From: Tetradesmus obliquus
Lineage: Eukaryota; Chlorophyta; Chlorophyceae; Sphaeropleales; Scenedesmaceae
Assembly: GCA_030272155.1 (NCBI GenBank)
Contig: CP126203.1
Span: 62,001-126,000 of the forward strand
DNA length: 64,000 nt
Direction of reading: 5' to 3'
The notes beneath the pieces were generated by a model. That model had not been told where the DNA came from, searched no databases, and was given only the letters and a program-made list of their open reading frames with translations. Below, piece by piece: positions 11,294 through 62,312 of this stretch (its first letter is position 1; each line of letters starts with the position of its first letter). Both the position numbers and the translations under genes were made by a program.

Positions 11294-14005
11294 ATGAAGC
11301 GGCACTGGGCGCCGCTGGCACTGCTCATCCTCGCCGCGGCATGTCTGACCAGCAGCACAGCAGCCAAGCAGCAGAGCAGCACTGCGCTGCAGCAGGCCTG
11401 CGGAGGCCTGGGCCAGCTGTGCTGCGCGAGGTGCCCCCCAGGCACCCTAGCATCAGGTGAGGCACAGCCAGCTGGCAGCCCCTTCAACAGCCTGACTGCA
11501 GCAATTCTGGCAGGGTAACGTAGGACAGGGCTTGGAGGGCGCTGTGCGAGCAATGGCAGCAGGGAGGGACAACATCAGCGTGTGTCACTAGCTGGAGGAC
11601 TTCCCGGCTTTTGTTGCGTGTGTGTCACCAGCTGCCGGAGTTGCAGCAGATGCCGCTAGCAGTGGCTGCCTGGCCTCACGCACCTCCACGCTGCTGCTGC
11701 CGTGCAGAATGTGACGTCATGGAGTGCACGGGCGGCCGCGCCTGCTACATGTTTGCTAGCAAGGAGGCGGCCATCCCTGACGGCACGCGCCGCTTCCCAC
11801 AGGTCTGCCTGGACACGCCGCCGGTGAGTGGGCAGCAGTGACGCTGCTTGCACGGCGCAGCTGAGCCTGGCACGGCATCCCTGCAGCTTGACCTCCCATC
11901 AGCCTGCGAATGCTGTGTGGCGTGCGTGGCCGCATGCTGCAATGCAACCAGCAGCTGCAGCCACTGTGCTTGGACACGTCCGCTCAGTGACGCCCTGGGA
12001 CAGACCCAAGGGTGGCGCGTGCTGAGGCCGACTGCTTGCCACGGCCACTGCAGCAGCAGCTTTGCAGACCGCTGTGCTGGCTGCTGAGCCCAGTCCCCTC
12101 CTGCGTTGAACCTCTAGCAGCCTGTGCTTGCAGTGTGGCGTGCGGGACCACACCCAGTGGTGCAGCAATCAGCTTAAACTCGTCTCATCCTGTTGCAAGA
12201 CATATCCACAGCAGCCCTGAGCACGCACACAGCACCACAGCAGCACTGCTGCTGCCTGCTGACCCTCTGACACACACACCCGCCTGCTGCGCCGCCTGCC
12301 CCCCACCAGGCCTGCGGCCAGGCCGGTCAGCCGTGCTGCTTCAGCAGCGACCCCACGGCTGAGGCGGAGCGCTGCGGCCCGGGGCTGACGTGCATCGTGG
12401 AGGGCGTGGGCTACGGCGGCACCGCCATGTTCACGCGGCTGACGGCAAACCCGGGGCTGGTGCGCTCAGGCGCGGTCATGGGCACCTGCAGGTGCGGTGG
12501 GGAGGGGGGCAGAGGTATGCCAAGCGGCTGTGTTTGGGTGCGTTGAGGCGGCAGCTGCCCGTGCAGCGCAGCTACAAGAAGTACTTGCAGCAGGCAGCTG
12601 GGGGCAAGAGCAGCAGGGCCTGTGCTTTGGCAGCTGACACATTCCGGCAGTCACACGGGTACAAGGCGCGGGAGTGCGCAGTGCAGCCCTGATCAGCTGT
12701 CGCGCTGCTTCCTCTTTACCCCTGCCACTTTCAAACAGCATGCCTGCCGTGCTGCCCGGCTGCCTCATGGACAACATAATCGCAGGAAGCTGAGCACAGC
12801 CACATGCGGCAAGCGCTGGTACCCGTGTGGCGCAGCAGCGCGGCGCATCGGCTGCGCTGAGAAAGAGCTGCTGTGCGGGCCACAGGTGCGGCTGGGACAG
12901 ATACGGTCGGGTCATGTGGGCGGCAGACGGTCTCGGCTGCGAGCAATGCTGTTCCTGCAAGCAAGTGTGAGCTGCTATGCGGGCCGCAGGTGCGGCGTAG
13001 CTGGCCGCTGCTGCGCAAGGCAGGCAGCGGATCATCAACAGCAATACTCTTCCTGCAAGCAACAGCCTTATGCAGCCTTGAGCATGCTGCAGGACCCAAT
13101 CAGTACCCAGGGCTGCCCCTCTCAGCTCGCTCACTGCTCCGCCTCCACGTAGACCACCTGTGCTCTGTCATCACCACTTGTCATGCGCAGCATCTTGCTT
13201 TCCAAAGTAGAAAACAATCTCATCAACCCACACCTGGACCTACCTTCCCCGCCCTCTCCACCTCGCCCCCGCCCCGCTCCACCTCCCCACACACCCGCAG
13301 GACTACTGCGCCTCCCCTGCAGACACCATGCTGGGCGCCCCCCGCTGCCTGCCGCTCCCCCCGCGCTGCGGCTCCAAGAACAACGGCTGCTGCCCGCCCA
13401 ACAAGGACGGTGTAGTGCGGGAGCGCTGGCTGCTGGACCCCACCCAGCCTGTGCCCTACTGCACAGACGGTGCCAGCTTCTGCGTATGGAAGGTGGCGGA
13501 CTACAAGCAGCAAGGCCTAACACCACTCAACTCTGGCGGCGGCGCGCGCAGCCTCACTTGGGATGGGTATTTCCAGCGCGGCTATGGCACCAGCCGCTGC
13601 GCGCCGCTGCCGCCAGCGTGCGGCAACCCTGGCGAGCCATGCTGCCCCAGCATGATTGACCAGCGCATCTCCGGCATGGTGCACAACCGGCGCTTCAAGT
13701 ACCAGCCCTGCAATTATGCGGCGGCTGGGAAAGATGGCATCTACTGCCGCGGCAACTGGCAGGCGGCGCTGCTGTTTGCGGGCGGGCAGATCGGCACGTG
13801 CACCCTCAACACACCCGACTGCGGGACGCTCGGCAAGCAGTGCTGCAGGGAAGATGTGCCGGAGGTGGGGCCTGTCACGCGCTGCGAGGTGCGGCAGCCG
13901 GCCGGCACGCACTACTGCAATGCGGCCAATGTGTGCAGCAGGTGCCCCGCTGTGCCCACCACGCCGGAGCAGAAGGCTGACTGCAGGGCGCCCGCCAGGG
14001 GCTGA
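11294..14005 (+). CDS. Secreted cysteine-rich protein with repeated CG-x4-CC motifs
   Basis: Five exons join in phase to 421 residues: 11294-11456, 11708-11823, 12310-12491, 12786-12885, 13301-14005. MKRHWAPLALLILAAACL is a clear signal peptide. A recurring module begins CG..G..CC: CGGLGQLCC, CGQAGQPCC, CGNPGEPCC and CGTLGKQCC, plus a variant CGSKNNGCC. Each is followed by further Cys and a short loop (CGPGLTCIVEG is one example). This looks like a small disulfide-bonded domain repeated at least five times, as in cell-wall or extracellular matrix proteins. No enzymatic motif is visible and I do not recognise the family. The 3' edge of exon 4 (ELLCGPQ plus donor) is repeated inside the following intron at 12969-12999. 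Confidence 0.75.
12866..12999 (+). repeat. Donor-edge copy of Cys-rich gene exon 4
   Basis: The end of exon 4 and its donor (GAGCTGCTGTGCGGGCCACA then GGTGCGG, 12866-12892) recur at 12969-12995 with two base changes and an intact GGTGCGG donor. The neighbouring bases TTCCTGCAAGCAA also recur further on. The copy has no acceptor in phase and is taken as a pseudo-exon. Confidence 0.8.
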
Positions 14006-15423: not shown

Positions 15424-15760
15424 ATGAACTGCAGTACGTGCTGGCACAGTCCGGGATGCGTGCCTGTCGCAAGCCGCAATTCGCTGTCACGTCACCAAAC
15501 ACACAAGTGTTATGCAAGTTTCAATCAAAAAGATGCGTGGCAGTCGGCCCCCCTGCTGGATGCCGTGCTTGAGCGCGGCAACAGGCTGCAGGACAAGCCC
15601 TTCCATGTGCCGGGCCACAAGGTGCGACACATGCAGCCGGAATGCCACTAAACGACGAATCTTACGATTTACTAGTGCGGGTGCATGGTTGAAGCTGGTA
15701 TTGTAGCCGTGGTGCTGCTGCTGGTGATGGGTGCTGCGGCCGCTGCTGCTGCAGCTGCAG

Positions 15761-15800
<40 letters not shown>

Positions 15801-16446: not shown

Positions 16447-19400
16447 AGGGCTTGACTACCTGTCCTCCCCCACCGGCGTCATCGCAGCAGCGCAGCAGGC
16501 GGGAGCAGCCACCTTTGGCGCGGACCACACCTGGCTGCTGGTCAACGGCTGCAGTGCAGGCATACACGCGGCAGTGATGGCCACTGTGAGGCCCGGCCAG
16601 GCCCTGCTGCTGGCACGCAACTGCCACCTGTCTGCATTTGCGGCCTGTGTGCTGGCTGGCTGCCGGCCTGTGTGGCTGCAGCCGGAGGAGGATGCGCTGC
16701 ATGGCGTGGCGCACTGCGTGACGCCGCAGCAGCTGGAGGCAGGGTTTAGGGATGCCCAGCAGCAGGGTTTAGAGGTGGCTGCAGTGCTGGTGGTGTCTCC
16801 CACCTACTACGGCGCCGTCGCACGTGTGCCAGGTACGTCTGCCCTTGTTTTATTGCCTGGTTGTAGCGGCTGGCCCAGCTCACCCCCAGATCCACTGCCA
16901 CAGCGCTTAGCTGTCAGCTGCGTGGCAGGCCCTCCTGCAGAACTCACATGCAGAACTCACATGCAGAACTCACATGCACATCACAGCAAAGATAAGCTGG
17001 CGCTTGCGAGCTGTCGGTGCCAGGCAGCTGTGTAAGGCCTCAACACTGGGTGCACTCGGGCACTGTGGCGCGCGTGGCGGGTGTTGGCTGTGGCAATGGA
17101 TGGGGTCTGGCACTAGCTGCTGGCCTCGCAGCGCAAGGCCTGCGCTGGCTGGGCGGTGTGTGCGCTAGGTGTGTGTGGTGTAAGGCGCAGCAGTCTAAGG
17201 CGTGTTGGTCGTGTGCCGCCCCGCCCCGGCCTTGCTTCATAGCAATGCCACTTTTTGAGTACCGAGAGTTCGTACACACCTGCACTAGTGTGGGGTGGTT
17301 GTGTATGTGCGTGTGGACTTAATGTCAGGTGCATCACTTCACTTATGTCACCTGGGTCTGCTGCTGCTGTATGTGGCTGCTGCAGAGCTGGCTGCGCTGT
17401 GTCATGCGCGGGGTGTGCCGCTGCTGGTGGATGAGGCGCATGGAGGCCACCTTGCTTTCCTGCAGCAGCATCGGGAGGAGTTACGGCAGCAGGAGGAGGA
17501 GTCACGGCGGCGGGAGGAGGAGTTGGAGCAGCAGTGGAAGGACCTAGAGCAGCACGGGGAGGAGTATGGGCAGCAGCATGAGAAGTTGGAGCAGCAGCAG
17601 GAGGAGATAAGGCAACAGGATGAGGAGCTGTGGCGGCAGCAAGTTGATTCACAGATGTATCAGGGGTCCCTACAGCAGCAGCACAAAGTCCTACAGCAGC
17701 AGCAGAAGGAGTTGACGCAGCAGCAGGAGCACTTGGCGCGGCAGCAGGAAGAGTTGCTGCAGCAGCAGGAGGAGGGATGGCAGCAGCAGCAGAAGGGCCT
17801 ACAGCAGCAGCAGAAGGGGCTGCAGCAGCAGCAGAAGGGTTTGCAGCAGCAGCTGGAGGGTCTGCAACAGCAGCAGGAGGGTCTACAGCAGCAGATAGAC
17901 GACCTGCGGGGGCAGGGGAATGGCGTAGAGCAGCAGCAGCAGGACCTACAGCAGGAGCAGGAGGACCTACAGCAGCAGCAGGATGGCGTAGCGAACCAGA
18001 CGGACTATCTGATACTGCAGCAGGAAACACTACAGGAGCAGCAGGCGGACCTACACTCGCGACAGCAGGTCGCAGCTGGCCAGCCAGCCGCAGGTGAGCA
18101 CAGGTTGTGGCTCCGCACGTCACCTGCAAGGTAGTACAGGACTTTCACTCCACCGCCTTTCTTCAGATGCAGGTTGCAGTCATCACAGCAGCATGCCCCG
18201 CTTGTTGTGCGGGGACTCGCCCGAGGTGTGCTTTTGTTTGGCTTGCCTGCATCGCAAATTTCCCCTAGCCATTCTTCCCAGGCCTGACGCCAGCCGCCGC
18301 AAACATCTTGACTCGCATGCACCGCAGGCCAGCCATCCAGCAGCAGCAGCAGTCTGTCTGCGCTGGCTGCTGGCGCCGACCTGGTGGCCCAGTCCAGCCA
18401 CAAGGTGCTGAGCGCGATGACGCAGGCGGCCATGCTGCACAGCCAGGGCAGCAGGGTGGACCCTGCCCGCGTCAGCAAGGCGCTGCAGGTGAGGCTGCTT
18501 ACTGCTCTGGTGTATGGGAGGGGGGGGGGGGGTGAGGGGAGGGGGCAGCCGCAGGGGCAGAGGCGTGTGGTTGGGCGGCACATGGAGAGGTTGATTCTGA
18601 GATGGCGTCAGCAAGGCGCTGCAGGTGTGTGGGCGGGGGCCTCCAGCTTGGAGGAGGGCCACGACGCGTCTACTGCAGTTTTGTCTGTCGGTGTAGCTCA
18701 GCCAGGTTGATTGTTGTGTAGCTACATATCAGCAGACGCCCGGCTTTTCTCTCAACTGCAATGCGGTTATGAAGGTGCTTTCCTACCCCTGCGTGGGTTT
18801 GTGCAGGTCACAGGGCTTTGGAAGGCAGGCCATGGTGAAGCAGGATGCACGACAGCACTGCAGTGCTGCTAGCAGGTGCCATAGTTTGAGTGCTGTACCA
18901 CCTCCCATTTGCGCTGTGTGCTGCCGCTGCTGCCGCTGCTGCTGCTGCTGCTGCTGCTGCTGCAGGTGCTGCAGACCTCCTCCCCAAGCTACCTGCTGCT
19001 GGCCTCCCTCGACGCAGCACGCCGCCACGCAGCCACACCAGGCACCTGGGACACCCCCCTGGCTGTAGCAGCAGCAGCACGGGCAGGCCTAGCAGCCATC
19101 CCAGGGCTGCTGCTGCTGCAGGGCGGCAGCTGCGGCAGTGAGGCCTCAGTGGGTGGCTGGGACCCTTTGAGGCTGGTGGTGAATGTGGCGGGGCTGGGGC
19201 TGAGCGGGTTTGATGCTGCGCAGTGGCTGGAGGAGCAGCACAGCATTGTACCCGAACTGGCCACAGCACAGGTGCGAGGCGTGTCAGCTGCTGCTGAGGC
19301 TGTGCATTCTGGCAGCACTTGAATTATTGGCATATGTTGCTGCTGAGCTGGCCACAGCACAGAGGTGCAACGAGGAGATGTGGGTACTGCAGGGTGTTGG

Positions 19401-20178: not shown

Positions 20179-21790
20179 CAGTCTTTTCTGTTCATGTGGC
20201 GCTGTATGTGTGAGGGGCTATGCTTGGGTGCCACCAGTGGCAGCGTGGCGGGCGGCTGAGGTTGCAAGTGTGACTGCAACAGGATGGTGCCTAATGGATG
20301 CATGCAGTGTGCGCTGTGAGTCGTGGCCTCGCCTGCTGCTTGCAAGGCGCCACTGACGTGCCACGCCACACAGCATGGGTGTGATGGCGTCGGTCAGCTG
20401 CTGGCTTAGCATAACGTGTTCTTTGCATTGAGTTGCTGCAAGCATTGAGTAACATGTTCCGCAACAAGTAACGGTTGGCCGCAAACATGACTATCTACGT
20501 GCACGCCTTGCTGGTTGCATCACCACAGCCAGATGTGCAGGAGTGCATACTGCTACAAAAGCACCGCCACAGTGTCCTTTTGCTGGCATGGGGCTTGCTC
20601 CCATTTCATGTTCACCAGATGGATGTTACACCAGGAAAACAACAGGAACACAACCTTGCAACTGCTGGCGCACATAGCTGGCGGCCTGCCAACTTGGCAT
20701 GACGGTGAAGGCCCATAGGCCGCAATCTGCAACCTCTTACTGTTTTTCACGACAGCAGCCACCACCACTGGTGGCACTGTACAGCCAGCCAACGCTTAGA
20801 TGCCACGTGCATAAGGCTTGGCAGCAGCAGAAGAGGAACGCTGCCCGCCCGGCACGCGCCCCCAGGGGATGCAGATGTATGCATGCCTACAGTGCACAGC
20901 CTCAGGCTGGTCTATAATGTTCAAACGGTTCCTGCAGGCAGCTAGCTGCGCAGCGCTGCAGCGACTGATATCTGCAATCCAAATGCGGGACAAATCCAGA
21001 TGCACTAAGTTCATGCTCAAAGTGCAGCCACCAGACAGGTGCAAATACGATGACATGCGTGCAGTGCCCACACATTAGCGAACAGCGGCAAGTAGCATGC
21101 GTCAAGATCAATGCAATCAATAAGGCGCAGCAGCAGGGGACCCTTTCCCAGACGTGCTCAAGGAGCATGCATGTACATGTGCTGCAGCATTGCGGCAGGT
21201 GCATGCTGCTGCTGTGCCAGCCTGGCCTCAGCTGCATGCCCCGCGCAGCTGCAGCGTAGCAGCGCCTGGCACTACCGCTGCAGTGTGGTACAAATGTAGC
21301 TCAACCTGTTGTGGCTCATACAATCCAAGATGGTGCCAGGACCCACATGTAGCTATCCTCTCCCAAATGTAGCAGAGCATGCCTGGGCCAGATCAGCCAA
21401 GCACCCAGCCAATTTGGCGCGCGGTTTAGCCATGCCAAATGCCACAGAGAAAGCATGCACCTTCAACCCGTCTTCAGTAACACCATGCAGCACGGCAGCA
21501 ATCTGCTGATATGAACGCAGTGTATTCCTGTACTATCTAAGAAGGTGCTGCCGCTGCACTGGACAGTGTTGGACAGTGTTGTCAGTGGCCGCAGCCTATT
21601 GCAAACACATATCATGCTGATTATCAGAACAGGGATAGCCAGAGGGCCTTGACGTGCACCAGCCTACTAGCCTGCTTCTCAGCTTGGCTGCTCAAAAGGC
21701 CGTCCTGCCACCCTACAAGGCCAGCTTCTCTCCTGTGTAGCCCGTATTGCATGCTGCACCATCACCAATCACACCCTACAAAGCCAGCCC
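20179..21790. other. 1.6-kb convergent intergenic region
   Basis: The region lies between the 3' ends of the decarboxylase and the dehydrogenase. No gene, RNA or transposon is recognised. Short reading frames on both strands lack consistent codon use. Confidence 0.5.
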
Positions 21791-24975
<3,185 letters not shown>

Positions 24976-39941: not shown

Positions 39942-40469
39942 CGGCAGTGCAGCAGCAGACAGCTGTGAGCAGGGGCACAGACGGACCCCGCCCCCCTTTC
40001 TACCTCACCAGCAGCGTCATGTGGATGTCTGCGTTGTAGGGGCGGAAGTACACCACTGCTCCGATGCTCATCCAACTGCGCCACCTGCGCGTACACCGAA
40101 CGACAAACGGCCAAACTCGAAGCACACACAGAAGCCCACAAGCATGCACACCACAAACACACAGGCAGCGCTCACCAGCAGCGTCATGTGTATGTCTGCC
40201 TTGTAGGGATAGGAGTGCACACACAACATGCACACACTGTACACACATCACCCAGCCAGCACTTGAACTACAGCAGGGCTCACCAGCAGCGTCATGTGTA
40301 TGTCAGCCTTGTAGGGGTATGAGTGCACCACCAGCTCCGCCAGCACATGCATAGGAATAATAGCATGTGTCATCCACTGGTACACCCCCTCCAGGCTGTA
40401 CTCCTTGCGCAGGCTGCTGTCAATGGCGTCAAGCAGCTGCGCCCCCGCACAGTGAGGGCCTGGGGGAAA

Positions 40470-40544
<75 letters not shown>

Positions 40545-40663
40545 GCGTTTGATCAGCAGAAGGGAATTTAATTAGCAACAGGGCGGACGGATGCTCAGCA
40601 GGCTGCTGTCAATGGCGTCAAGCAGCTGGGCCCCCGCGCAGTGAGGGCCTGGGTTGAAGAATA

Positions 40664-40698
<35 letters not shown>

Positions 40699-42153
40699 TG
40701 GTGGGTGCCAGCAGCAACGTGTACTCCATGCCCAGGCTGCTGTCAATGGCATTAAGCAGCTGGGCCCCCGCGCAGTGAGGGCCTGGCGGCGGCTGCGGCA
40801 GCAGCAGCAGCAGGGTGTTTGTTCAGCAGCAAGGCGATCAAATGCTTAGCAGGCTGCTGTCGATGGCTGCCTGCGCAATGTGGGCTGCGAAGCGCACAAT
40901 ATGACGACAGCCGGGCACGATGGAACCATCCACTGCAGCACAGCTGCGGCCACTCAAACGCCATGCTGTTGATGGCGGCGTTCCTCGCATTCAGCCGCAA
41001 AACGGCCACGCCCTGACGAAGATCATACATCTGACACCTGCGCCCCCCCCCCACCCCGCACCTGCCACGCTGTCGATGACCGCGCCTGTCGCGTACTGGC
41101 CACGCCCGTGGTGCCGCCCAGCAGCATGCATTTCATTTGAAGTCTGCTGCAGTGCCCCACCTGCCACGCTGTTGACGGAGCAAGTCACGTACAGCTGCCA
41201 ACACTGCCCTCTTTTACAAATCAAGCAACTCTTTCCAAGTTGTCACAGCCCGCGCCGCCGCACCCGCCCCCACCTGCCACGCTGTTGATGACCGCGTCTG
41301 TCGCGTAGCCGGCCATCCCCGTGGTGCCGTCCAGCAGCGCCGCCAGCTGCAGCACCAGCAGCTGCCGCTGCTGCTTGATGCGCATGACCGTGCTGCTGTA
41401 CAGCTGCCGCGCCACGCACAGGTCGGCCAGCGCCTGAGGGGGCAGCCTGCGGCGCGGCACAGGTCACAAGTGATCACACATCACACAGCATGTCAGCAAG
41501 TGCCACGCACAGGTCGGCAAGGGTGCAGGGCAAGGGTGCAGCCTGCGGCATGACACAACACGATGCGGCGGCTGTGTACGAGATGCCGGCAAACAGCCAC
41601 GCACAGGTCGGCCAGCGCCTGGGGCGGCAGCCTGCGGCGCAAAATAACACGCAAAGGGTATATATGTGTGCGATGCAGCCAGTGCAGCAGCCGCAGGCAC
41701 CGTGAGCAGCGAGCAGCCATCCCGGAGCAGCAGGCGGCATCCAACCCCCCACACCACCTCCGTGCATGCCCACGAAACACGCTGTCAAACGCCTCTGCAG
41801 AACAAACACTTGAAGCCACACCATCCCTGCCCACCTGTCTTTCAGCATGGCCGCCACGCGCTTCCAGTGTCCGGGCGGCGGCGGCACCCCCAACGTCCCC
41901 GTCTCAATATTAAGCGTGTACAGCGCCTGCGTGGACAGCCGGTTCAGCACCGCAAAGCTGTGCAGCTGGCGGCTGTAGTCCAGCATCAGACTGTTCAAAG
42001 CAGCCATGGCAGGGCTGTGCTGCTGCTGCTGCTGCTGCTGCAGGCCAGCCGGCAGCTGCGGCAAATCCTGCTGCTGCTGCTCGAGGGTCAGGCCCGGCTC
42101 GATCTTGATCGTGGCAGGAGGCTGAGATAAACCCTCGCCGGCCTGGCCTAAAC

Positions 42154-42218
<65 letters not shown>

Positions 42219-43172: not shown

Positions 43173-44194
43173 AGAGGCGGCGCAGGGCTCTGTGCAGTAC
43201 TGGCCTGCGGCTGCGGCTGCTGCTGCCGCCGCCGCTGCTGCTGCTGCTGCATTGGCTGTGCACCCGCCCAGGGCCCCTCGCCCTGCAGTGCTGCCACTGC
43301 TGCTGCTGCTGCTGCCGCCGCCTCCTCGCTGGCCTCCCTGCTGTCAGCCTTGAGGTCCAGCTGCTGCAGCGCCTCCTCCATGAGGGACACGTCATCGCCT
43401 GCAGCGCGACAGCACAAGGCAAAACAGTCACAACAAGCAGACAAGACGACAGCAGGCAGTGGCAGGTCCAGCTGCTGCAGCGCCTCCTCCAAGAGGGACA
43501 CGTCATCGCCTGCAGCAAGAGCAAGAAAAGGAAGCATACACAAGAAAGGCAGCGGGGGCTTTAGGCTAATGAAGCATGCAGGGCTCCGCAGCATGCAACA
43601 GCTGCTGCGCCGCCTCGTCCGTCACGTTCGCGTCATCGCCTGCGGTGGGGCACAGCACGCAGAACAACAAACACAAACTCGCAACCCAAAACAATACGCA
43701 GGCAAGCATGCTCCATCAGCGGAACGTCATCGCCTGTGCGGTGGGACACAGGATGCAGAACAACAAACTCAAGACCCTAAACCCAAACACTCAGGCTCAC
43801 CTGCTGAGGCCAGCAGCTGGTCCAATGCCCTCGCTTTAGCAGCCAGCGCCATGTGCTCCAGCCAACACACAGCACACAAACGTACATAAGGACGGGCAGC
43901 AGCAGCATGTTTCAAAAACACTGAAGCCCACCTGCTGAGGCCAGCAGCTGGTCCAGCGCCCTCGCCTTGGCAGCCAGCGCCATGTGCTCCAGCCGCAACA
44001 TAGAGGAAGATAAACACGGGCAGCAGCAGCAGGTTTCAACGTCACTCATGGCTCACCTGCTGATGCCAGCAGCTGGTCCAGTGCCCGTGCCTTGGCAGCC
44101 AGCGCCATGTGCTCCAGCTTCAGCGCCTGCAGCTGAGCCTGCTTGGACGCCACCTCCGCCTGCAGCTGCGACACCTGCAAAAGGGACACAAGGT

Positions 44195-44253
<59 letters not shown>

Positions 44254-45004
44254 GCAGCAGCAGCAGCAGGCAGCAGCAGTAGTCAGCACATGCAGAGGGA
44301 CTGCTGGGCCGCCACCTCAGCCTGCAGCTGCGCCACCTGACCACAGCACACAGGACAAGCCCCAGACAGCACAGCAGCAGTCGGCACACATGGAGGCATC
44401 GTGTGACAACTGCCCTGCCCTGCATGCCGCTGCAGCAGTGCACGTGTGCAGCAAACTCAAGCACACACACAACCCTTTCCATACTACCCTTCAGGTGCGT
44501 CGTGTCGGGACTTCAGGCGCTTTGGCGATTCAACTTGCTGGGCATCCTCTTCTTCTGGTGGTGGCCTTGCATTGCACTTTGCAAATGTCTTTGCTTGACA
44601 CCTACTGTAACAAGCATTTTATGCTGAAACATGCATTCTACAGCTTACATCCTCAGCTTGCTACAGCACTGCAGCGCGTAGCTGCCAGGCCAGGCGCCCG
44701 CCCCCGTCCCCCCGCCCCCACTGCACGCTGCCCCTGCCCCACCTACCTTGTCCTTGCGCCGCTGCTTGTGCTTGCCGCCCACCAGCCCACCACCCGCCCC
44801 AGGCCCACCAGTAGAACCCAGGCAGCCCGCCACCCACCTTGTCTTTGCGCCGCTGCTTGTGCTTGCGCTCATGTGCCGCCTGCTTGCGCACCGCCACCTT
44901 CTGCAGCCCAGCCACCCACGCCAGCAGGCTGCCCTCATTCAATGCAACCCCGGTGCTGGCCCCTGCAGGGGTGAGCATCACACCACTAAACCCTGCAATG
45001 CTGC

Positions 45005-45696: not shown

Positions 45697-45729
<33 letters not shown>

Positions 45730-46277: not shown

Positions 46278-47371
46278 TTAGTTTGATTTGCCGCAAGACA
46301 GCTTAGGAGCTGCAACGGGGCCTGACGCACGAGTCCCGGTCTGGATCCTACGCCAGCTCTAGATACGTCCCCACTGCCGATAAAACAATACGTTTAAAGT
46401 TCCGCGTGCATGATTGAAGAGCCATCGAGCAGTCAGTTCTGCTGCAACAGTGCGGGAGGGACTGAGCTATCTTAGAGGAGCTGATGATGATGCAGCGCCA
46501 CTTCCACATCAACACACTGAGACGATTAACGAAAAAATGTTCAGGTAATCATACGGCGTCACAGAATGAGGCAAGCGGGTCGAGGTTACTGTTCACAGGT
46601 GTCATGACATGCTGACTCCATGATGGCCATGGATCGTCCCAGTGATGCTCCCACACGGCTCAAGCAGCATCAGCAGCCCTCTACCTCTGGCTTGCTGCAT
46701 CCCAATCCTTGCACCAACAGACAGTGTGCCGGCTTGTGCAGGCAGAGCTCGCCGCACTCGGCAGTTCATTGACTCCACAGCAACTTGCTGCTTGCTGCTT
46801 CAAGCACTCACGCTGGGGCGACCCTGCCCTACGTTGCCATGGCCTCTGGCTTGATGGGCCTGGCGGTCTCAGTGGCTAATTGCTGGAACAAATACAATAC
46901 ACGCCCTGCCCTACATCACCATAGCATGATGGCTGGCGGTCTCAGTGGCTGGCAGTCCCAGTGGGAAGAACACCAAGCAGGTGTGGATGCTGACACGTCT
47001 CAGCCTCTTCACAGCCGCTGCTCCACTGCCGCCCTGTCAGCCGCCGTCATCTGCGCAGCTGCGCACGCAGGCCGCAGCGCCTGGCAGCATCACTGCAGCA
47101 GGCGGCAAGGCGCCGCCCCAGTCAGGCCATACATGCCCCGCAACTGCCAGCCAGCCGGCTGTTAGCTGTGCTGCTGCTGCTGCTGCTGCTGCTGCAGTGC
47201 CGCTGCTGCTGGCTGATGGCCGCTGCCTCCCCTCGCAGCCAGCTGCTCCAGTATGGCGTGGCTGTCTGGCACCCCAAACCTCCAGCGTGCCTGGCAGCAG
47301 CCTTCCTGCAGGCGGCAGGGCGCCGCCCCAGTCAGGCCAGACATGCCCCGCAACTGCCAGCCAGCAGGCTG
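46278..47371. other. Spacer between the two bZIP-like paralogs
   Basis: The half near 46300-46600 is the likely promoter of paralog A; no TATA is evident. The half from about 47080 holds the 3' flank of paralog B with a duplicated terminal exon. No other gene is recognised. Confidence 0.45.
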
Positions 47372-47480
47372 TTAGCTGCGCTGCTGCAGTGCTGCTGCTG
47401 CTGGCTGGCTGTCGCCTCCCCCCGCAGCCAGCTGCTCCAGTATGGCGTGGCTGTCAGGCAGGAAGGGGTAGGAGTGCACC
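47108..47480 (-). repeat. Duplicated terminal exon of paralog B
   Basis: Two tandem units of about 200 bases each contain DSHAILEQLAA codons, a Gln/Ala tail and a TAA stop, and then the same 3' flank (GCAACTGCCAGCCAGC on the plus strand). The first unit (stop at 47372) follows a good acceptor in phase. The second (stop at 47162) has lost the VHSYPF start and the in-phase acceptor. Confidence 0.85.
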
Positions 47481-48586
47481 TGAGAGGGGGGGGGGAGCGG
47501 GGGGGCATGCAGGGGCATGCAGGGACAGGCAGGCAGGCGTCATGTGAGCAGCTGGGGGGAGTCACTGTCAGGTCAGGCAGCAGCAGCACAGCCAGCGGGC
47601 TCCAAGTCAGCAGCTTGCGGTGTATGCTTGAAGGTGCGCTCTTTGCATTTTTCATGCTACACTGTCCATCTTTATATAATGTCAACAGCACACAAAGACA
47701 AACAAACACACTGCATGAGGACGAGATCATCCAACTCGTTCACTCACCAGCATCTCCGCCGCAACCAGCGGGCTCATCAGCTATTGCTCATCACACATGC
47801 ACCAGCTGCACACAGCACACACACACACAGCACACACACAGAACACACCAACCCACCAGGATGTCCGCCGCCACCAGCGGGCTCATCAGCTTTGTGGAAG
47901 GTCCTCATCACACATGCACGCACAAGCTATGCAATCCCTACATGAACTATCCCAAACCATTGCAAACACTCACCAACCAGTACCTCCGCATCCACCAGCG
48001 GGCTCATCAGCTTGTGGAAGGTCCTAGCCACACGACACCCAGCACACGGCACACACAATACATCGTATGCACACAAAGTATCCTATCCCATCGCACCAGG
48101 ATCTCTGCTGCCACCAGCGGGCTCATCAGCTTGTGGAATGTCCACTGGTACACACCCTCCAGCACTGCCTCGCGACGCAGGCTGCTCTCAACAGCATCAA
48201 GCAGGCTGGCACCCGCGCCGTGGGGCCCTACAGCAGCAGCAGCAAGCAGCGGCAGCAGGCAGTGAGTCAGCATGTAGGCCTCCAGCACTGCCTCCCTACG
48301 CAGGCTGCTCTCAACAGCATCAAGCAGCGAGTGCCAGCACCATGCGGGCCTGAGGCAGCAGCAGCAGCAGCAGCAGCAGCAGCGGGTGGCAAGGTGAGGG
48401 CACAGGCAGGAGATGGCAGCAACATCAGCTGCGGTTCCAGCACCTAATTCTGTTGCCTGCTGCTGCTGCGTCTGGGCGCTACTGCATAACATAACACGCC
48501 TGCTGCATCACTCTCGCACTTGCTGTCTCCACGCCCGCTGCTGCTGCTGCTACTGCTGCAACCAAATCCTGCTGCTGCTGACCGCG

Positions 48587-48619
<33 letters not shown>

Positions 48620-51266
48620 CCCCCACCCCGCTCACCCAGTTCGTTGCTCAGTGCGTCGTCTGTCGCGTAGCCTCCCATGCTGCTGTAGCGCCCCAGCAGG
48701 CCCTGCAGCTGGCCCAGCAGCAGCTGCCGCTGCTGCTTGATGCGCGCGTGGCTAGCGCTGTACAGCTGACGCGCCACACACAGGTCGGCCAGCGCCTGGG
48801 GCGGCAGCCTGCGGCACAGAACATGCCACAACACAGCACACCTCATCAATAGCCGTGCACAGGTCGGCCATCGCCTGGGGGGGCACCCTGCGGCGGCAGA
48901 TGTAACACTATGTCGAGAACAAGGGAGGGCGATGTGAGATGCAGCCAGTGCAACAGTCGCGCACAGGTCGGCCAGAGCCTGCGGGGGAGCCTGCTGCAAG
49001 GCGCCTGGGCCAGCTGCACCACGTCCTCACATCATCAACAGCAGCAGCTGCTGGCTGAGTCGGCCCGCCTGCCTGCCACCCCTGGCCCACCACGCAGTTT
49101 TCACCCTGCTGCCTCCCTGCCTCGCACCTTCTACCCTCCCATCTCCCTTGCCCCGGTCCCACCGCACCTGGCCTGCAGCAGCGCTGTCAAAACAACACAA
49201 AGCGCTGCCCTGCCGCCACCTTCGCTCGCTCCTCCCACCCCCTGTCCCAGCCCCCTACCCCCCCCCCCACCCTCACACACCCACACACCCACCTGGCCTG
49301 CAGCAGGTCCGCCACCTGGCGCCAGTGCCCTGGGGGCGGCGGCTGGCCCATCAGCCCGCTCTCAATGTTGAGGCTGTGCATGTAGTAGGAGGTCATGTAG
49401 TTGGCCACGGCAAAGCGGCGGAACTCGCCACGCACCTGCAGCAGCAGCAGCAGCAGCAGGCGGTGGTGCGCGTGATTGTCCTGGAGGTGGTTCAGCAGGG
49501 TTGCTGCTGCTGGTGCTGGCGAGTTGGCTGCGTGTCTGGTCGAGGGTGAGCTCTGCTGCTGGGGCAGCTGCCTACGCACCAGCAGGCAGCAGCAGCAGCA
49601 GCAGCAGCAGCCTGCATGGACCAGCTGTCAACAGTGCGTGTCAGCTTGGGGCTGCTGCTAGTGTCTGCAGCCCTTCAAGCCTGACACAATAGGGCGAGAG
49701 GCCAACATCCACACGTGCTGCTGCGCACCTGCAGCAGCAGGAACTGCAGCCGAGTCGAGGCACTGGAGGGCGAGCAGGCGCTGAACGGCGACACAAACTG
49801 CTGCTGCTGCTGCTGCTGGGCCTGGTATGCCACATCAGCCCCACCCGCTGCTGCCGCTGCTGCTGCCGCACCCCCCGCATCGCCTGGCGACGCTGCTGCC
49901 AGCTGTGCCAGGTCCTGCCGCAGCTTCTGCTGCTGCTGCAGCGGCGATAGTGCCAGGCCCTGCTGCTGCAGATGTGCCAGTGCTGCTGCCTGTGCTGCTG
50001 CCTGGTCCCAGTAGGGCTGGGGTGGGCACCCAACGCCCAGGCTGCTGCCCTGCTGCTGCTGCTGCTGCTCCTGGCCCAGCTGCAGCAGCAGCGCCATCAC
50101 CTCCGCGATGAAGCTCTTCAGCAGCGCCTGCAGCGTGGGCAGGCCACCCTGGCGGCGGCAGCAGCAGCAGCAAAGGAAGGGTGGCGGGTGGTGGTACGCA
50201 GCCAAGGGGATGAATTCAGGATTTCAGCGCACAGACAGCGTATCGAGGACAGCAGGCAGCTGCTGCAGCTCAACTGCGTCATTCACAATGCCCACACCAC
50301 ATGTAATGTTGGCAAATGAACAGTGACCGAGTGGTGCTGCAATGCACCACCAAATTGAGCTGGCCCCCTCTAGACGTACTGCGTTTTGGTGGTGGTAAGT
50401 ATTCCAGGTGTGCAGAACAACACAAGCTGCCACGCCTAACCATACACCCGCCTGCCTGCTGCGCCGCACCGCACCTGCAGGCGCTGCATGTCGCCGGGCA
50501 CTTGGCCCTGCGGCTGCGACTGCACCCGCAGCAGACGCTGCACAGCACTCTGCAGCCGCTCCAGTGAGCCGTCAGCAGCAGCAGCAGCAGCACTGCGGCT
50601 GCGGCTGTTGCCGCCGCTGCTATTGCTGCTGTTCGTTGGGCTGTGGCGCGGCTGCTGCAGCTGCTGCTGCTGCCCTGCCGCCACGATCTGGCGCAGCTCA
50701 CTGTCGGCAGCAACGCCAGCCAGCAAGGACACATCACCATGCTGCTGCTGCTGCTGCTCATCAGTGCTGGTGCCTGCTGCATGAGTAGCAGCTGCTGGTG
50801 CTGCTGCAGGCACCGGCAGGCTCAGCAGGCCCTGGGGCTGGCCTGCAGTGCTGCTGCTGCTGCCATCCTCCTGCTTGATCCGCTGCTGCTGCTGCTGCTG
50901 CTGTGGCTGCTGCAGGCTGAGCTGCTCCAGCTGCTGCGCCAGTGCAGTCTGGTTGTCACCTGCAGCACCACAGGCAGCAGTGACACCGCCAGCAGGTGTG
51001 ACCAAGTCATACATACACTCATGCTTGGCCCTGAGCAAGCACGGATGCAGACACGCACCTCGCCATGGGGATGCAGTGTGCTGGTGCGGCTCCCACTGAC
51101 AATGGCAGTCGACCAGGACTCACACTAGCACAGCCAGTACAGCACCGGCAGCATGACTACGCCATGTGGCCCACCTGCTGATGCCAGCAGCTGGTCCAGT
51201 GCCCGTGCCTTGGCGTTGAGTGCAGCGTCCCCAGCCAACACACAGCACACAACACAATGTACATAC

Positions 51267-51298
<32 letters not shown>

Positions 51299-51396
51299 CC
51301 CACCTGCTGATGCCAGCAGCTGGTCCAGTGCCCGTGCCTTGGCGTTGAGTGCAGCGTTCTCCAGCCAACACACAGCACACAACACAATGAACATAC

Positions 51397-51438
<42 letters not shown>

Positions 51439-51966
51439 CCACCTGCTGATGCCAGCAGCTGGTCCAGTGCCCGTGCCTTGGCGTTGAGTGCGGCGTTCTC
51501 CTGGCTCAGCGCCGCCAGCTGCGCCTGCTTCGCCGCAACCTCAGCCTCCAGAGAGCCCATCTGCAGCAGCAGCAGCAGCAGCAGCAGTAGCAGCAGCAGC
51601 AGCAGACTATTTGCACAGTAGTTGTGCATGTCTGCATACAACATGCGCATTGATGGTCAGGCATATGAACTGTACTATATTGACGAAAGGCTGTTCAGCC
51701 TCAGCCATTGCTGGCATTGCTGGCAAGGACAAAAGGCACAGCTGCAATGACTTCAAAAGTGCCAGTTGGTCTGCAGCCCTGATCCAGGCCCATCGCCTGC
51801 GCCCACCGGCCCACCACCCCAACCTTAGGCAGCCCAACACCCACCATGTCCTTCCTGCGCTGCCTGAAGCGGCGGTGCGCCTCGCGCTGCGCATCACTCG
51901 GCTGCCGGCGGCGGCGCGGCTTGGCGGCACCCCCAGCAGCATTGTCACCGGGCGCTGCCCGTGCTG

Positions 51967-54797: not shown

Positions 54798-55427
54798 CTA
54801 CTGCTGCTGCAGCTGCGCCTCCTGCTCCATCGCTGCCATGGCCACGCCGTATGCCTGCGCTGTCAGGTACACCGCGCTGACGGGGTTGCCCGCAAACATG
54901 CGCCCGTGGATGGCGTCGCGCGCCTTCTGCGCGCCAGCCGTGTCCACAAACTGCACGTAGGCCTGCAGGAACAACCACAACAGCAGCAGCAGCAGCAAAG
55001 TGGTGAGGTAGCTGCGGCTTTAAAAAAGGCACCAGTCATTGGCTGCAGCACAACATCGGAAGCGCCGCCATGTCCACAAACTGCACGTAAGCCTGCCATG
55101 CAGGAACTCAACCACAACAACAGCAGCAGCAGCAGAGTGTTGAGGCGAATGCGACTTGAGCTTCGCCTGCAGCACAACACCGCCCGGCAGCAGCGCACTA
55201 CCTGCTACTACCTTACACTACCCCCACCACACCCCGGCCAGCCAGCGAGCGCACCTTGCCGCAGTTGCCTGGTGCCGGACAGGTGGCACACGCAACAGCA
55301 GCTTGCACAGCACACACGCTCGCCAACCCCGCACCCCGCCACGCACCTTGCTGTAGTTGCCCGTGCCGAACAGGTGGCGTGCCGCCTGCGGGTTGGCGGG
55401 GCGAGGCACCTGCACCTCGTACACAGC

Positions 55428-55473
<46 letters not shown>

Positions 55474-58400
55474 CAGGCAACAGGGCTGCGTACGCTCGTC
55501 TCCACCCGCAACCCAAGAGACACACCCTGCCACTAGCCGGCAGCAGCGCCACCACTTCCATTTTCACCTTACCACAACTACAGAGCCCCACGCACCTTGC
55601 CGTAGTTGCCCGTGCCGAACAGGTGGCGTGCCGCTTGGGGGTTGGCGGGGCGCGGCACCTTCACCTCGTACACAGCGCCATGGCGGCCACACTCCTCCTT
55701 AAGGTCTAGCAGCACCTGAGGAACACCAGGAAAGCAAGAAAAAGGCAGCAGCAGGGGCAGGCCAGCCACAGGAAAGACCGCAGCAGGGGTGCCGCCCAGG
55801 AGACGCAGCAGCAGCAGGTGTCGTCAGTGTTGCGCCTGGGGTTCAGTCAGCTGGCGTGCGTGCTTGACGGGTGCTGTGGGTGCAAGCTGCGCACGCAGGC
55901 TGCGAACGCAAGCACTGCAGCAGTTGTTGCTGTGCAGCACTGTGCATCGCAACCGTTGCTGCTGTCTGCACATGTCACGATTGCACTAAGAGCACCACGT
56001 GCAGCATGTGGTACAACAACTGCAGGTACCGCTGGCGGTGCACAGGTCAACTGCTTCAAACAGCTGCGCATCTGCTGTTCAAACCCTCATGTTTGGTTGC
56101 AGCTGGGAGTAGGAGCGTGGCGGCCGCGCCGCAGCGTAGCACAGTGATGAGTCAGCACAGTCACACACGCTGCAACAGCATCAAGAAACAGCAGCAAACA
56201 GCAACAGAGCAGTAGAGCAATCCAGCTGCTGCTGCGCCAGCCATGGCGTCCGCGGTGGTCGGCAGTCGAGCTGGGGCGGGGTGGAAAGCTGCAGCAGCAC
56301 CAGAAGCAAGGCGCTCGTGGTTACACAGCCGCAGCAACACAGTCGCCTGAGGGAAGGGGGCAGCATTGCTACCAGCCAGACCCAGCCAGACCCAGCACAA
56401 GCAGGTGCAGCTGCTGCGTCGCAGTACTGCGTCCCTACCTCACGCCATACCACCTTGCTCCTCTGTGTAGCTTGTGCAGCACCCATACTTTACCCGCAAC
56501 ACACACTCATGCCAAGCAGCAAACCCCCACAAACTATTTGAAATCAGTGCCGCCGTTCACCAAAAAGGCACACCACAGCAGCCCCCGCACCTCCTCGTAC
56601 TCCTCTCCATCCTCCAGCACCTCGGGCGTGATCATGCCAGCCACCACCACGTAGGGCGTGGGAATCGAACTGGCGCCCGCCTCCGTCACCAGCGCAGCAC
56701 CCGCTGGCGCTGGCCCCACACCCGCACCAGCAGCAGCACCACCAGGCGGACCAGGAAAGGGCCCCGCAGCAGCAGCCAGTGCTTCAGCGGGCACTGTGCC
56801 TGCTGCCACTGCTGCCTCATTATGCCCCGCTGCTGCTGCGTTGCCGGCGGCTGCCATGTGTGCGCCCGCTGTGCCCGGCAGCAGCGCCTCTGCTGCTGCG
56901 ATTGAGGGCAGCGGGATGCCGGCGCCAGACTGGAAGGCTGCCAGGGCCGCTTCGGCCTGCGCGGCTGCCTGGTGCACCTGCGGCAGGGCAGCAAGCAATT
57001 AGGCAGCAGCAGCAACAGCAGCAGCAGGCACAGCGTCACATCGTAAGTGCAAGGACTGGAAGGCTGCGAGGGCTGCCTCGGCCTGCGCGGCTGCCTGGTG
57101 CACCTGCGGCAGCAGGTGGGGGTATAGCAGTAGCGTCACAAGTGAAGCGGCCCAGCAGCACATGCAGAAGTTGAAGATACGGCACGCAAGAGTTCGGCGC
57201 TATGCACATGCCGCAGCATGCGTCCCTGCATGTGCCTGCATGTGCGCAGCGGTCGCACTGCCTTGCAGCCGCGCTTGGGTCCACACAGCTGGCGAGCTTC
57301 ACATAAGAGGCATCACATTGAGACAGCAGGTAGTCGTTTGGCTGGCTACAGCTGCAATGCACTTGCCGCACCTTATTCGGGTCCACATAGCTGGCTAGCC
57401 GCCCAATGGACGCCCAATGGACAGCGCCTGGCCCATGAGGTTGATCTGGCCATGCCATGCCACACACACCACAGCATGAAGCATACAGCAGCCAGGCACC
57501 GTGCACACGCTGCAGCACGCGCCACCTTGTTGGGGTCCCAGCAGCTGGCAGCAGCCAGCGCCCAACTCAAAGCAGCAACACACCAAGCAACCAGCCTACC
57601 CACCTTGTTGGGGTCCACGTAGCTGGCTGGCCTGCCAATGGACAGCGCCTGGCCCATGAGGTTGATCTGGCCGTTGAGCTGCAGCGCGGCAGACGCGTAC
57701 TCGGGGCTGCGGAACTCCACAAAGCCGTAGCGGCCGTCGCTGTGGATGTTCACCTGCAGCAGCAGCAGCAGCAGCAGCGCAGTCAGCAGAGGTATTTGTA
57801 ATTTAAAGGCGGATGCGGAGCTCCGATACCTCACAAAGTAACAGCTACCGGCGCTGTGGAGTTCACTGTGTCCGGCCGCAGCAGCAGAGCGGGCGCGGCG
57901 CAGTGTCAGCCCGGCTGTGCCAGCTACTAGCTACTGGCAGCACTATCATGCTGCCAAGCAGTGCATCAACGACTGCACACGCAGCAGCACGCCCCTCCAG
58001 CCGCTGCCCCACTGCACCAATCAACACGCCATCACCCGCAGCAACCACTCAAGACCCCATCCAGGCTGCTGCTGCCGCTGCTGCTGCTGCCGGCCCGCTC
58101 CGCACCTTGCAGACCGGCTCTTGGCCCGGCGCTGCCGCCTGCGGGAATGCTGCGATGAGTGCGCTGTCAAATACCTGGCCCAGCATGGCCTCGGTGACCG
58201 CGCCCGCCGTGAGGTTGCCGATGTACAGCTGCAAACATAGGTAGAAACGCAGCGGCAGGGCAGGGCAGAGTGAGGTGAGGTGAGGTGAGACCTGGCCCAG
58301 CATGGCCTCAGTGACGGCACCCGAGGTGAGGTTGCCGATATGTACAGCTGCAGGCAGAGACAGGTGCGGGGTGAGGTGATGCGTGTGTGGCTCAACATGG

Positions 58401-58760: not shown

Positions 58761-58791
<31 letters not shown>

Positions 58792-59368: not shown

Positions 59369-59404
<36 letters not shown>

Positions 59405-60999: not shown

Positions 61000-61272
61000 A
61001 TGGTTAAGGTGGGCCAAAAGGCAGTGCAGCAAGCAGCAGCAGGCAGCACAGCCACTGGCGGCTCTGCAGCAGCAGCAGCAGCAGCAGCAGCAGGCCGGCA
61101 GCAGGCAGGTGGCGTTGACCCTGTGCGTGCCGCCAAGGTGAAGACGCTGCTGCTGCAGAGCACTGCCGTGGTGGTGGCTGCTGTGGGGCTGGCCTACTTT
61201 AAAGTAATTGATGACAAGCTGGCCATGGGCATCATTGTGCTGATGTACCTCACCGTGCGCTTCCTGTCGTGA
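61000..61272 (+). CDS. Small membrane protein, unknown family
   Basis: The only in-frame ATG (context GTCAGCATGG) gives 90 residues: a basic start (MVKVGQKAVQQ), an Ala run encoded by GCAGCA repeats, then two hydrophobic segments (TLLLQSTAVVVAAVGLAYF and LAMGIIVLMYLTV) and the end RFLS. Two membrane helices with a short loop (KVIDDK) are likely. The open frame extends upstream to 60613, so an upstream exon is possible and the true protein may be longer. I do not recognise the family. The codons from DDKLAMG to the stop are repeated about ten times immediately downstream. Confidence 0.5.
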   Translation: MVKVGQKAVQQAAAGSTATGGSAAAAAAAAAGRQQAGGVDPVRAAKVKTLLLQSTAVVVAAVGLAYFKVIDDKLAMGIIVLMYLTVRFLS

Positions 61273-62312
61273 GGCTGCAGGGGCGAGCATATGTGCGGTG
61301 TGAGGGTGAGCACGTGTGGCCAGCTCGCCATGGGCATCACTGTGCTGATGTGCCTCACTTGCTGTGCCTCACTGCGCTTATGAGGCACCAGGACTCGGTG
61401 GTGTTCTGTGTATATGCAGCATGTTGCGCCAAAGGATGAGTCAGGCCAGCTGGTATGGGCATCATTGTGCTGATGTACCTCACTGTGCGCTTCCTGTCAT
61501 GAGGCGGCAGGCCTAGGCCCTGGGGCCAGCCGTTGTTTTGTTTGCATGCAGCACGTTCTGCCTACGTATGTGCCAGGCCGGCTGGCCATGGATGTCATCG
61601 TGCTGATGCACCTCACGTGCGCTCCCTGTCGTGAGGTGGCTGGGCCGTCTTGAGCATCTTAACATGCAGGTGTTTAAGGACTGTTCTGACAAGCTGGCCA
61701 TGGGCATCATCGTGCTGATGTACCTCGCTGTGCGCTTCCTGTCGTGAGGCAGCTGGGGCGGGTTTTGTGCAGGGTGGTGTGCTGAAGCAGCTGAGCAGTG
61801 GTGATGAGCTCGCCATGAGCATCACTGTGCTGATGTGCCTCACTTACCACGCTCATGAGGCAGCAGGACTCGCTGGTGTTTCGTGTATATGCAGCATGTC
61901 ATGCCAAAGGATGTGTCAGGTAAGCTGGCCATAGGCATCATTGTGCTGATGTACCTCGCTGTGCGCTTCCTGTCATGAGGCTGCAGGGGCAGGTGCTGTG
62001 CAGGATGTTGTGCTGAAGCAGTTGAGCATGAGTTGCCAGGTCGCCATGGGCATCACTGTGCTGATGTGCGTCACTTAATGTGCCTTACCACGCTCATAAG
62101 GCATCAGGACTCGGTGGTGTTTTGTGTATATGCCGCATGTTGTGCTAGAGGATGAGTCAGGCCAGCTCGCCATGGGCATCACTGTGCTGATGTGCCTCAC
62201 CATGCGCTTCCTGTCATGAGGCGGCAGGGCTAGCTGATTTGATGTGGTGGTGTAGCATTGTTGGAGACCTTTAAGACAAGCTGGCCATGGGTGTCGTGCT
62301 GATGTACCTTAC
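61205..62312 (+). repeat. Tandem array of the last coding segment plus stop (about 10 copies)
   Basis: A ~65-base core (GCTGGCCATGGGCATCATTG, then GTGCTGATGTACCTCACC, CGCTTCCTGTC and a TGAGGC stop region) recurs about every 110-125 bases. Copies lie near 61210, 61320, 61450, 61580, 61690, 61805, 61925, 62040, 62165 and 62278. Two diverged subtypes (ATCATTGTG...CGCTTCCTGTCGTGAGG and ATCACTGTG...CACTTACC) partly alternate, suggesting a higher-order unit. Several copies keep DKLAMGIIVLMYL-VRFLS in frame with a stop. Confidence 0.93.

Follow-up and report, generated by a model that had tools for sequence, protein, structure and literature searches.

The window analysed in this study, a stretch of 64,000 nucleotides (nt) from the alga Tetradesmus obliquus (contig CP126203.1, positions 62,001 to 126,000), has a GC content of 0.60 and contains a Cys-rich gene, a decarboxylase gene, an SDR gene, two bZIP-like paralogs, a U2AF65-like gene and a gene for a small membrane protein. 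In Pfam family scans the SDR, decarboxylase (PF01276) and RRM genes were confirmed; nothing in Pfam matched the bZIP-like or the small membrane protein, which keep the names given in a preliminary description of this DNA. The ends of exons in these genes recur together with their splice signals in neighbouring introns, where 20 to 90 nt of the exon edge are present in one to nine copies. Such copying had been claimed for the window, and we found it both there and, beyond it, in a sample of 57 loci anchored on protein families. All results derive from the DNA sequence of a single assembly of 104.7 megabases in 17 contigs.

Three samples were searched. Besides the window, we used six stretches of 10 kilobases (kb) at round-number positions (60 kb) and 57 non-overlapping loci of 3.2 kb (191 kb) around the best matches to the kinesin, protein kinase and RRM families. 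These anchored loci, cut from 68 by dropping overlaps, were picked by protein family and not for repeats, and thus represent well-conserved genes. Gene models, on which all border counts rest, were predicted with a small gene finder whose training set was 55 stop-free family matches. It gave a model in 56 of the 57 anchored loci, with exons consistent with the family matches in the 25 loci inspected; in the window and the 10-kb stretches it was weaker and sometimes called a copy as an exon. Predicted exons were compared with noncoding DNA within 2 kb, a match within 12 nt of an exon end counting as an edge match, and reversed, swapped (noncoding DNA only) and inverted sequence served as controls. 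An initial swap control had given 56 matches, probably from the resemblance of kinase and kinesin exons to each other, and was replaced by the noncoding-only swaps, which gave none in 335 exons.

Masked self-comparison of the window revealed 60 direct repeat pairs within 4 kb and a single inverted one, in agreement with the tandem arrangement proposed before; over 223 kb the ratio was 116 direct to 2 inverted pairs. Among 61 predicted window exons, 13 acceptor-edge copies all lay upstream of their exon and 8 donor-edge copies all lay downstream, exactly the polarity that had been described. Twelve copies of the stop-codon side of last exons were likewise all downstream, comprising six units of an exact 23-nt minisatellite at 3.4 kb, five members of the array at 61 kb and one copy of the SDR stop. 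Matches to exon interiors numbered eight, four of them inside the 61-kb array. The controls run for this search and for that of the anchored loci gave 0 (reversed), 0 (swapped) and 2 (inverted) matches. By coordinate, the edge search listed seven splice-donor and ten acceptor arrays; three further rows of donor type were ends of last exons. The donor arrays at 51.4, 55.6 and 12.8 kb came from self-comparison, their exons having been missed or misread by the gene finder. The arrays of the window are as follows (coordinates, strand, feature).

12786..13062, plus: Cys-rich gene exon 12786-12885 with a weak donor-edge array from self-comparison (offset 104, 69%, 21 nt of exon), the weakest member.
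18328..18624, plus: decarboxylase gene (PF01276) exon 18328-18488; donor-edge copy 18605-18624, weak, 20 nt only, GT kept, expectation value (E) 3e-4.
21713..22025, minus: SDR last exon 21791-21936; acceptor-edge copy 22003-22025 upstream and stop-edge copy at about 21713-21741 downstream (exon search).
22353..22556, minus: SDR exon 22468-22556; donor-edge copy 22353-22401 (73%, offset 115).
23607..24085, minus: SDR exon 23607-23744 (VLINNAG); acceptor-edge copies 23835-23872, 23948-23985 and 24047-24085 upstream, AG in all, offsets 100-128.
40004..40782, minus: bZIP-like A predicted exon 40248-40459; acceptor-edge copies 40598-40648 and 40720-40782; copies of the inner part of the exon downstream at 40165-40220 and 40004-40063 (all from self-comparison and exon search).
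41062..41631, minus: bZIP-like A exon 41274-41446; donor-edge copy 41062-41126, acceptor-edge copy 41596-41631.
43264..43733, minus: bZIP-like A exon 43264-43398; acceptor-edge copies 43464-43509 and 43599-43639 and a third from 43733 down (by eye).
43801..44336, minus: bZIP-like A exon 44057-44174; donor-edge copies 43932-43993 and 43801-43862 (offsets 125, 131), acceptor-edge copy 44283-44336.
44747..44978, minus: bZIP-like A exon 44838-44978; weak donor-edge copy 44747-44832 (69%).
47079..47460, minus: end of bZIP-like B; last coding stretch, stop codon TAA and roughly 85 nt beyond it duplicated (offsets 210, 189; self-comparison, by eye).
47748..48349, minus: bZIP-like B exon 48097-48227; donor-edge copies 47978-48046, 47857-47903 and 47748-47782 (offsets 119, 121, 109), acceptor-edge copy 48280-48349.
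51175..51560, minus: bZIP-like B exon ending at 51443, missed by the gene finder; donor-edge copies 51304-51362 and 51175-51228, GT kept, offsets 139 and 129 (by eye).
54798..55092, minus: U2AF65-like exon 54798-54962; acceptor-edge copy 55024-55092 (72%).
55339..55715, minus: U2AF65-like exon 55596-55715; donor-edge copy at about 55339-55426 (94%, offset 249), called an exon by the gene finder.
57372..57753, minus: U2AF65-like exon 57604-57753; donor-edge copy 57372-57440 (81%).
57,816-57,867: weak array member (69%) with AC in place of AG.
58106..58347, minus: U2AF65-like exon 58106-58228; acceptor-edge copy 58293-58347 (88%).
61105..62315, plus: small membrane protein last coding exon 61105-61272 with stop codon; nine copies of its end downstream, five reaching the stop and four partial, a stop-codon edge and not a splice edge.

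The bZIP-like paralogs (40-44 kb and 47-53 kb, minus strand) carry arrays at partly corresponding exon edges, as seen from far repeat pairs in the self-comparison. Some of these arrays may predate the duplication of the paralogs, and the correspondence could be used to date arrays. Repeats of other kinds are also present in the window. An exact 23-base-pair (bp) tandem repeat of about seven copies at a predicted exon end (3355-3522, plus strand) is quite unlike the diverged 120-nt arrays. CAG/CTG tracts are dense throughout (e.g. 15734-15800, 24645-24750, 42153-42230), and about 8% of the window was masked as low complexity. Inside the decarboxylase gene model lies a glutamine-rich repeat of 21-nt units, apparently open in frame (17429-18094, plus strand). 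Two CTG-rich copies of 90 nt, a length divisible by three, are 94% alike and overlap a long open frame on the minus strand (45616-45801), and a 42-nt unit is repeated 4.2 times without mismatch outside the predicted genes (38083-38258).

The anchored loci gave the same picture. Their 247 exons yielded 41 noncoding matches, 36 of which lay within 12 nt of an exon end where 11.2 were expected (p 7.6e-16), so that the anticipated excess of edges over interiors was borne out. By class, 16 matches were acceptor-edge and all upstream, 16 were donor-edge and downstream, two were donor-edge and upstream, five were interior and two were whole exons. The 10-kb stretches contributed one acceptor-edge match upstream, ten donor-edge matches downstream, two on the side of first exons and nine interior ones, most of the latter in one exon of stretch L044. 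Pooled over all samples, donor-edge copies were downstream in 34 of 36 cases and acceptor-edge copies upstream in 30 of 30. A first-pass search had given 30 donor-edge copies downstream and one upstream, 19 acceptor-edge copies upstream and none downstream, and 23 interior matches, many of them weak exon-to-exon similarities; its single upstream donor-edge match was itself a 67% exon-to-exon similarity. The two upstream donor-edge matches in the anchored loci run against the rule. Same orientation, adjacent copies and a polarity set by the type of edge are what tandem duplication across an exon border produces, and all three were found. Independently of gene models, stretch 260-289 of the kinesin profile matches four times in one kinesin gene, three copies being located upstream of the exon that bears it. 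In L032 (701-1577), a kinesin array of acceptor-edge copies, at least three of them next to the exon, was fused by the gene finder into one long exon.

Exon-edge arrays are fairly frequent. Among 439 tested edges of the anchored loci (224 donor, 215 acceptor), copies were found at 7 donor and 11 acceptor edges (18) at E 1e-4; at E 1e-3, with tiny predicted exons counted as noncoding, the numbers were 12 and 13 (25), including a few without GT/AG that are doubtful. Thus, about 4-6% of tested edges have an array. Border arrays numbered 30 in the 191 kb of family-chosen loci and four in the 60 kb of 10-kb stretches, and extrapolation from these two densities would, very roughly, put 7,000-16,000 natural splice-competition arrays in the genome. 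The 30 arrays are clustered by gene: they occur in 15 of 56 loci, with up to five in one 3.2-kb locus and a variance-to-mean ratio of 2.4, and 41 loci have none. Genes rich in edge arrays are those of L050, L022, L064 and L060.

The arrays have a characteristic unit length. Within the window, the spacing between adjacent splice-site copies is mostly 89-162 nt, a regularity that the preliminary description did not include, and over all arrays 51 of 69 neighbouring sites are spaced 89-168 nt (of the others, six are the 23-nt minisatellite, one is 78 nt and eleven are at least 181 nt). Tandem Repeats Finder reported many arrays below 50 nt, two at 50-87 nt and a second group of 18 at 88-146 nt. 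Self-BLAST had given the impression that units below about 90 nt are missing. This was dropped after a simulation showed that the method is blind to short offsets, as two-copy units were recovered in 0 of 300 cases at 40 or 60 nt, 3 of 150 at 75 nt, 33 of 150 at 90 nt and 118 of 150 at 120 nt. An ungapped detector therefore replaced it for the offset distribution, and no sharp lower limit is claimed from BLAST. With this detector, 127 of 240 pair offsets fell at 85-154 nt and 11 at 45-74 nt, with none in the reversed control; these are pairs and not independent arrays. In 39 arrays, the median fraction of the unit contributed by the exon is 0.44, with the middle half at 0.37-0.53, and copies within one array often start at the same exon position.

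Could these be ordinary small tandem duplications that arise everywhere, those at borders standing out only because they are tolerated and because a conserved exon as one of the copies makes them easiest to spot? Such an explanation needs no new process. It covers both the polarity and the absence of exon-interior copies, and small tandem duplications formed by end joining are well documented (PMC8355091, from the part of that report considered here). Moreover, intron-intron pairs should diverge about twice as fast as exon-copy pairs. Nevertheless, the same detector gave opposite results depending on the period. In the anchored loci, 29 of 33 arrays with a period of 75-165 nt overlapped an exon edge, and none of the 11 with a shorter period did so (Fisher p 1.8e-7). 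The four that did not overlap an edge are the L032 kinesin array fused into a predicted exon, one in L056 that touches an exon by 14 nt in another comparison, an in-frame-looking coding repeat in L070 and an array outside the predicted gene in L032. Neutral placement predicts that about half should be intron-only: uniform placement of blocks over the anchored genes gives 53% purely intronic ones. The probability of finding at most two non-edge arrays among 31 (29 at an edge and two not) is 4.4e-8 at full detection power and 0.008 at a power of 0.3. We therefore regard ordinary duplication with biased recognition as unlikely, though deserving serious consideration, and a preference of the arrays for coding borders as likely but not beyond doubt.

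The borders concerned are not only splice junctions. The array of the small membrane protein gene (61.2-62.3 kb) repeats the coding end with its stop codon and not a splice junction as had been supposed, and the same holds for the arrays at 47.1 kb and 21.7 kb. An array of this kind is also present in the sampled stretch L041. As stop-codon borders behave like splice borders, a purely splicing-based process would not explain the arrays.

Most copies differ from each other by 5-30%, the exon parts being about 88% alike, as expected if they were not products of assembly stutter. Tandem repeats are a common assembly fault, yet arrays were found in loci from at least ten contigs, and they bear little resemblance to the exact 23-nt repeat at 3.4 kb. 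Thus, stutter as their source is hardly credible. Differences between exons and their copies fall on the three codon positions in the ratio 139/111/229, of about 1,430 each, and the shape is alike in arrays with (70/50/120) and without (68/61/107) flank homology. We read this as change of about 8-9% on the side of the copy, 8.7% for the overall counts, and of 7% at third positions on the side of the exon, which would mean neutral copies next to a constrained exon. The idea that the copies are conserved RNA elements was set aside, since detection of the arrays relied on their exon parts and the codon-position counts fit neutral copies.

The intron side behaves differently. It had been proposed that units of exon edge plus intron piece were duplicated. 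This is plain where the flank of the outermost copy is homologous to that of any other member (17 of 46 arrays) or of its neighbour (13 of 46); in the remainder (29 and 33, respectively) it does not rise above the 95% line of unrelated splice-site flanks. A comparison of the flanks of all copies had overstated the contrast, as the last copy may lack a match even after a plain duplication, and was redone. In outermost donor pairs, ungapped identity is 0.97 for the last three exon bases and 0.81 at -20 to -10, compared with 0.31-0.32 at +20 to +45, where unrelated flanks give 0.26 and inner pairs 0.49-0.53. With gaps, intron-side identity of the outermost pair is 0.716 for donors (unrelated 0.710) and 0.772 for acceptors (unrelated 0.736), where a shared history would leave about 0.83 before insertions and deletions. 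Copies compared with each other are more alike in exon parts (0.887) than in intron parts (0.804; 9 arrays, p 0.008), in arrays that were found through the exon parts. As far as the present sequence records it, the exon parts and the intron flanks carry different histories.

A loss of homology at the junction might suggest that a templated insertion, from DNA or RNA, pasted only the coding edge beside another usable splice site, so that intron flanks were never shared. The 29 arrays without flank homology despite exon parts about 88% alike, and the strong splice motifs in copies, agree with this. However, 17 arrays do share a flank, and taken together the flanks are above unrelated ones (p 0.0025 for donors, 4.8e-6 for acceptors); for those below the 95% line as a group, the p values are 0.056 and 0.006, respectively. 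In flank-free arrays, the bases adjoining the junction are also more alike than in unrelated sites (donor 0.72 versus 0.53, p 0.003; acceptor 0.59 versus 0.43, p 0.002). Junction bases alike beyond chance and residual flank homology make the copies look like old duplicates rather than random neighbours. Furthermore, stop-codon borders do likewise, and at 47.1 kb roughly 85 nt past the stop are shared. Insertion of the coding edge alone is thus improbable. Two intron pieces searched in their own genome as candidate dispersed or mobile elements matched only themselves in one case and themselves plus a neighbour in the same array in the other. No source of the intron pieces was found elsewhere in the locus in clean cases (L064, L073, L022 at 2193), with weak or in-array matches in others, and inspection of the inner ends, by eye only, revealed no consistent microhomology.

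The splice signals are retained in most copies. Of 49 donor copies, one of them a stop-edge copy, 39 retain GT, and 27 of 34 acceptor copies retain AG; the overall loss, 17 of 83, is close to the expectation for copies 87% alike that drift neutrally. Judged from the coding frame, the exon-proximal splice site would be the one used; for SDR, this is also implied by an unbroken family match across the junction. Here, the upstream exon joined to the last copy of array 23607..24085 gave one unbroken adh_short match over profile positions 1-188. Selection might also keep the copies as decoy splice sites, e.g. for unproductive transcripts. In support of this, splicing at the copy would lead to a frameshift or an added stop codon in 65 of the 70 copies with GT, GC or AG, and flank-free outermost copies with GT/AG match real sites in motif strength (donors 3.0 versus 2.8 for real and -2.3 for random sites; acceptors 4.8 versus 4.4 and -1.6; n = 10 + 10). 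This strength was at one point taken as independent of the real site, a reading dropped when similarity in the motif zone was found to exceed that between unrelated sites, the zone being partly inherited. The loss of GT/AG is as expected without selection, copies diverge about as much as third positions of exons so that constraint is not evident, and lengths divisible by three are not preferred (19 of 70). Maintenance as decoys is thus very improbable.

Our preferred account, to which we give about an even chance, is that border-anchored tandem arrays arise by duplication, that their exon-edge repeats then exchange sequence, and that introns grow as a consequence. Initially, a staggered break repaired by end joining would, in the simplest case, yield a tandem duplicate of a block of about 90-150 bp that straddles a coding/noncoding border. 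Going by gene structure, the mRNA would be unaffected if the exon-proximal splice site, or the first stop codon, continues in use, and the duplication would survive, whereas most duplications inside exons would be removed. The exon-edge blocks of about 50 nt would then be direct repeats some 120 bp apart that exchange by slippage, unequal exchange or conversion. This would keep them alike and change their number while the intron between and beyond them drifts freely, as the mismatch of histories suggests. Two causes can be proposed for the strong border preference: the exon, being constrained, may serve as a master copy, or breaks may arise locally at borders. A wider proposition, which we advance tentatively and consider somewhat doubtful, is that coding borders are fixed master copies in continuing exchange with adjoining noncoding duplicates, a border-anchored concerted evolution that lengthens introns and reshuffles which splice site is used.

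Several observations weigh against duplication with exchange. The exchange step is deduced from one assembly. The border excess depends on our own gene finder and 33 arrays, and the contrast is weaker in all three samples together, including poorer gene models (edge overlap in 47 of 59 arrays of 75-165 nt and 2 of 20 shorter ones). The power to see intron-only arrays was gauged indirectly, 9 of 30 border arrays being recoverable from the intron part alone. Moreover, 20 of the 29 flank-free arrays keep GT/AG at the copied site with a motif as strong as that of the real site. Inheritance with the copy explains this only in part; old neutral decoys should have lost more. Finally, none of the proposed steps foresees the clustering of arrays by gene.

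Growth of introns is usually ascribed to transposons and simple repeats. In our samples, introns with arrays had a median length of 457.5 nt (n = 28) compared with 259 nt in others (n = 183; p 5.1e-7), which supports the suspected link of the copies to intron growth. Without their extra units the array introns had a median of 291.5 nt, and arrays made up 9.9% of the sampled intron sequence (7,184 of 72,589 nt). Thus, the outcome is longer introns with rows of rival splice sites. If border preference extends through the genome, either breaks favour coding borders or exons keep their copies alive; we know of no report of either. The arrays represent a large natural set of splice-competition tests, and gene finders will call copies as exons, as happened here at 55.3 kb. 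In a tabulation of five genomes, T. obliquus (GC 57) has the longest mean intron, 462 nt (PMC5966456).

Second splice sites produced by tandem duplication are also the core of the intron gain model of Rogers (1989), in which an exon segment bearing AGGT is duplicated (PMC4974935; for Drosophila, PMC2891723; both as far as the portions consulted describe it). Here, the duplication straddles an existing border and a new intron is not evident. The signature of such a gain, i.e. the upstream exon end repeated at the intron end or the downstream exon start at the intron start, was present in 0 of 210 introns of the anchored loci, so that the suggestion of intron gain by this route found no support. 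Introns gained in Drosophila by duplication of coding sequence (PMC2891723, same portion) are a different thing from border arrays. The nearest case found is the potato RdRp gene, where one tandem duplication joined an intron 3′ end and an exon 5′ start, the same kind of block as in the acceptor arrays described here. The part of that report used here (PMC4974935) presents a single case interpreted as intron gain, whereas in our samples 4-6% of tested edges are affected, at donor, acceptor and stop borders and with 1-9 copies, and no gain was seen.

Introners add intron sequence in bulk and form dispersed families. The arrays likewise add intron sequence, but the two intron pieces searched here stay at their own locus. 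Direct repeats near exon-intron borders have been reported as a general feature (PMC11782384). Those repeats, according to the section of the report available to us, are 4-30 bp long, match the 5′ border to the 3′ border and are read as insertion footprints, whereas here 20-90 nt of one exon edge recur tandemly on their own side of the intron. In the literature searched, on intron gain and short direct repeats and with subscription journals mostly uncovered, no description of widespread exon-edge arrays came to light; single duplications across an exon border are known, and what we did not find described there is their frequency, apparent confinement to borders, unit length and mismatch between exon and intron histories. 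Small tandem duplications from breaks with overhangs, which are direct and tandem, provide a plausible birth step; the excerpt of PMC8355091 considered here does not predict the coding-border preference, the trough at 45-75 nt or the later exchange.

Competition between duplicated splice sites was examined by Reed and Maniatis (via PMC9225289, in the passages drawn on); as in the arrays, a single transcript carried competing copies of the same type of splice site. The cases described were laboratory tests and human alternative sites, whereas here many have been made by the genome itself. According to the same passages, a site yielding a shorter intron is preferred under intron definition, whereas exon definition selects the exon-proximal site. 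As the exon-proximal site appears to win here over rivals that would give a shorter intron, these rules predict exon definition in this genome, at introns of about 260 nt. If it does win, as the coding frames imply, the species follows the exon-centric rule.

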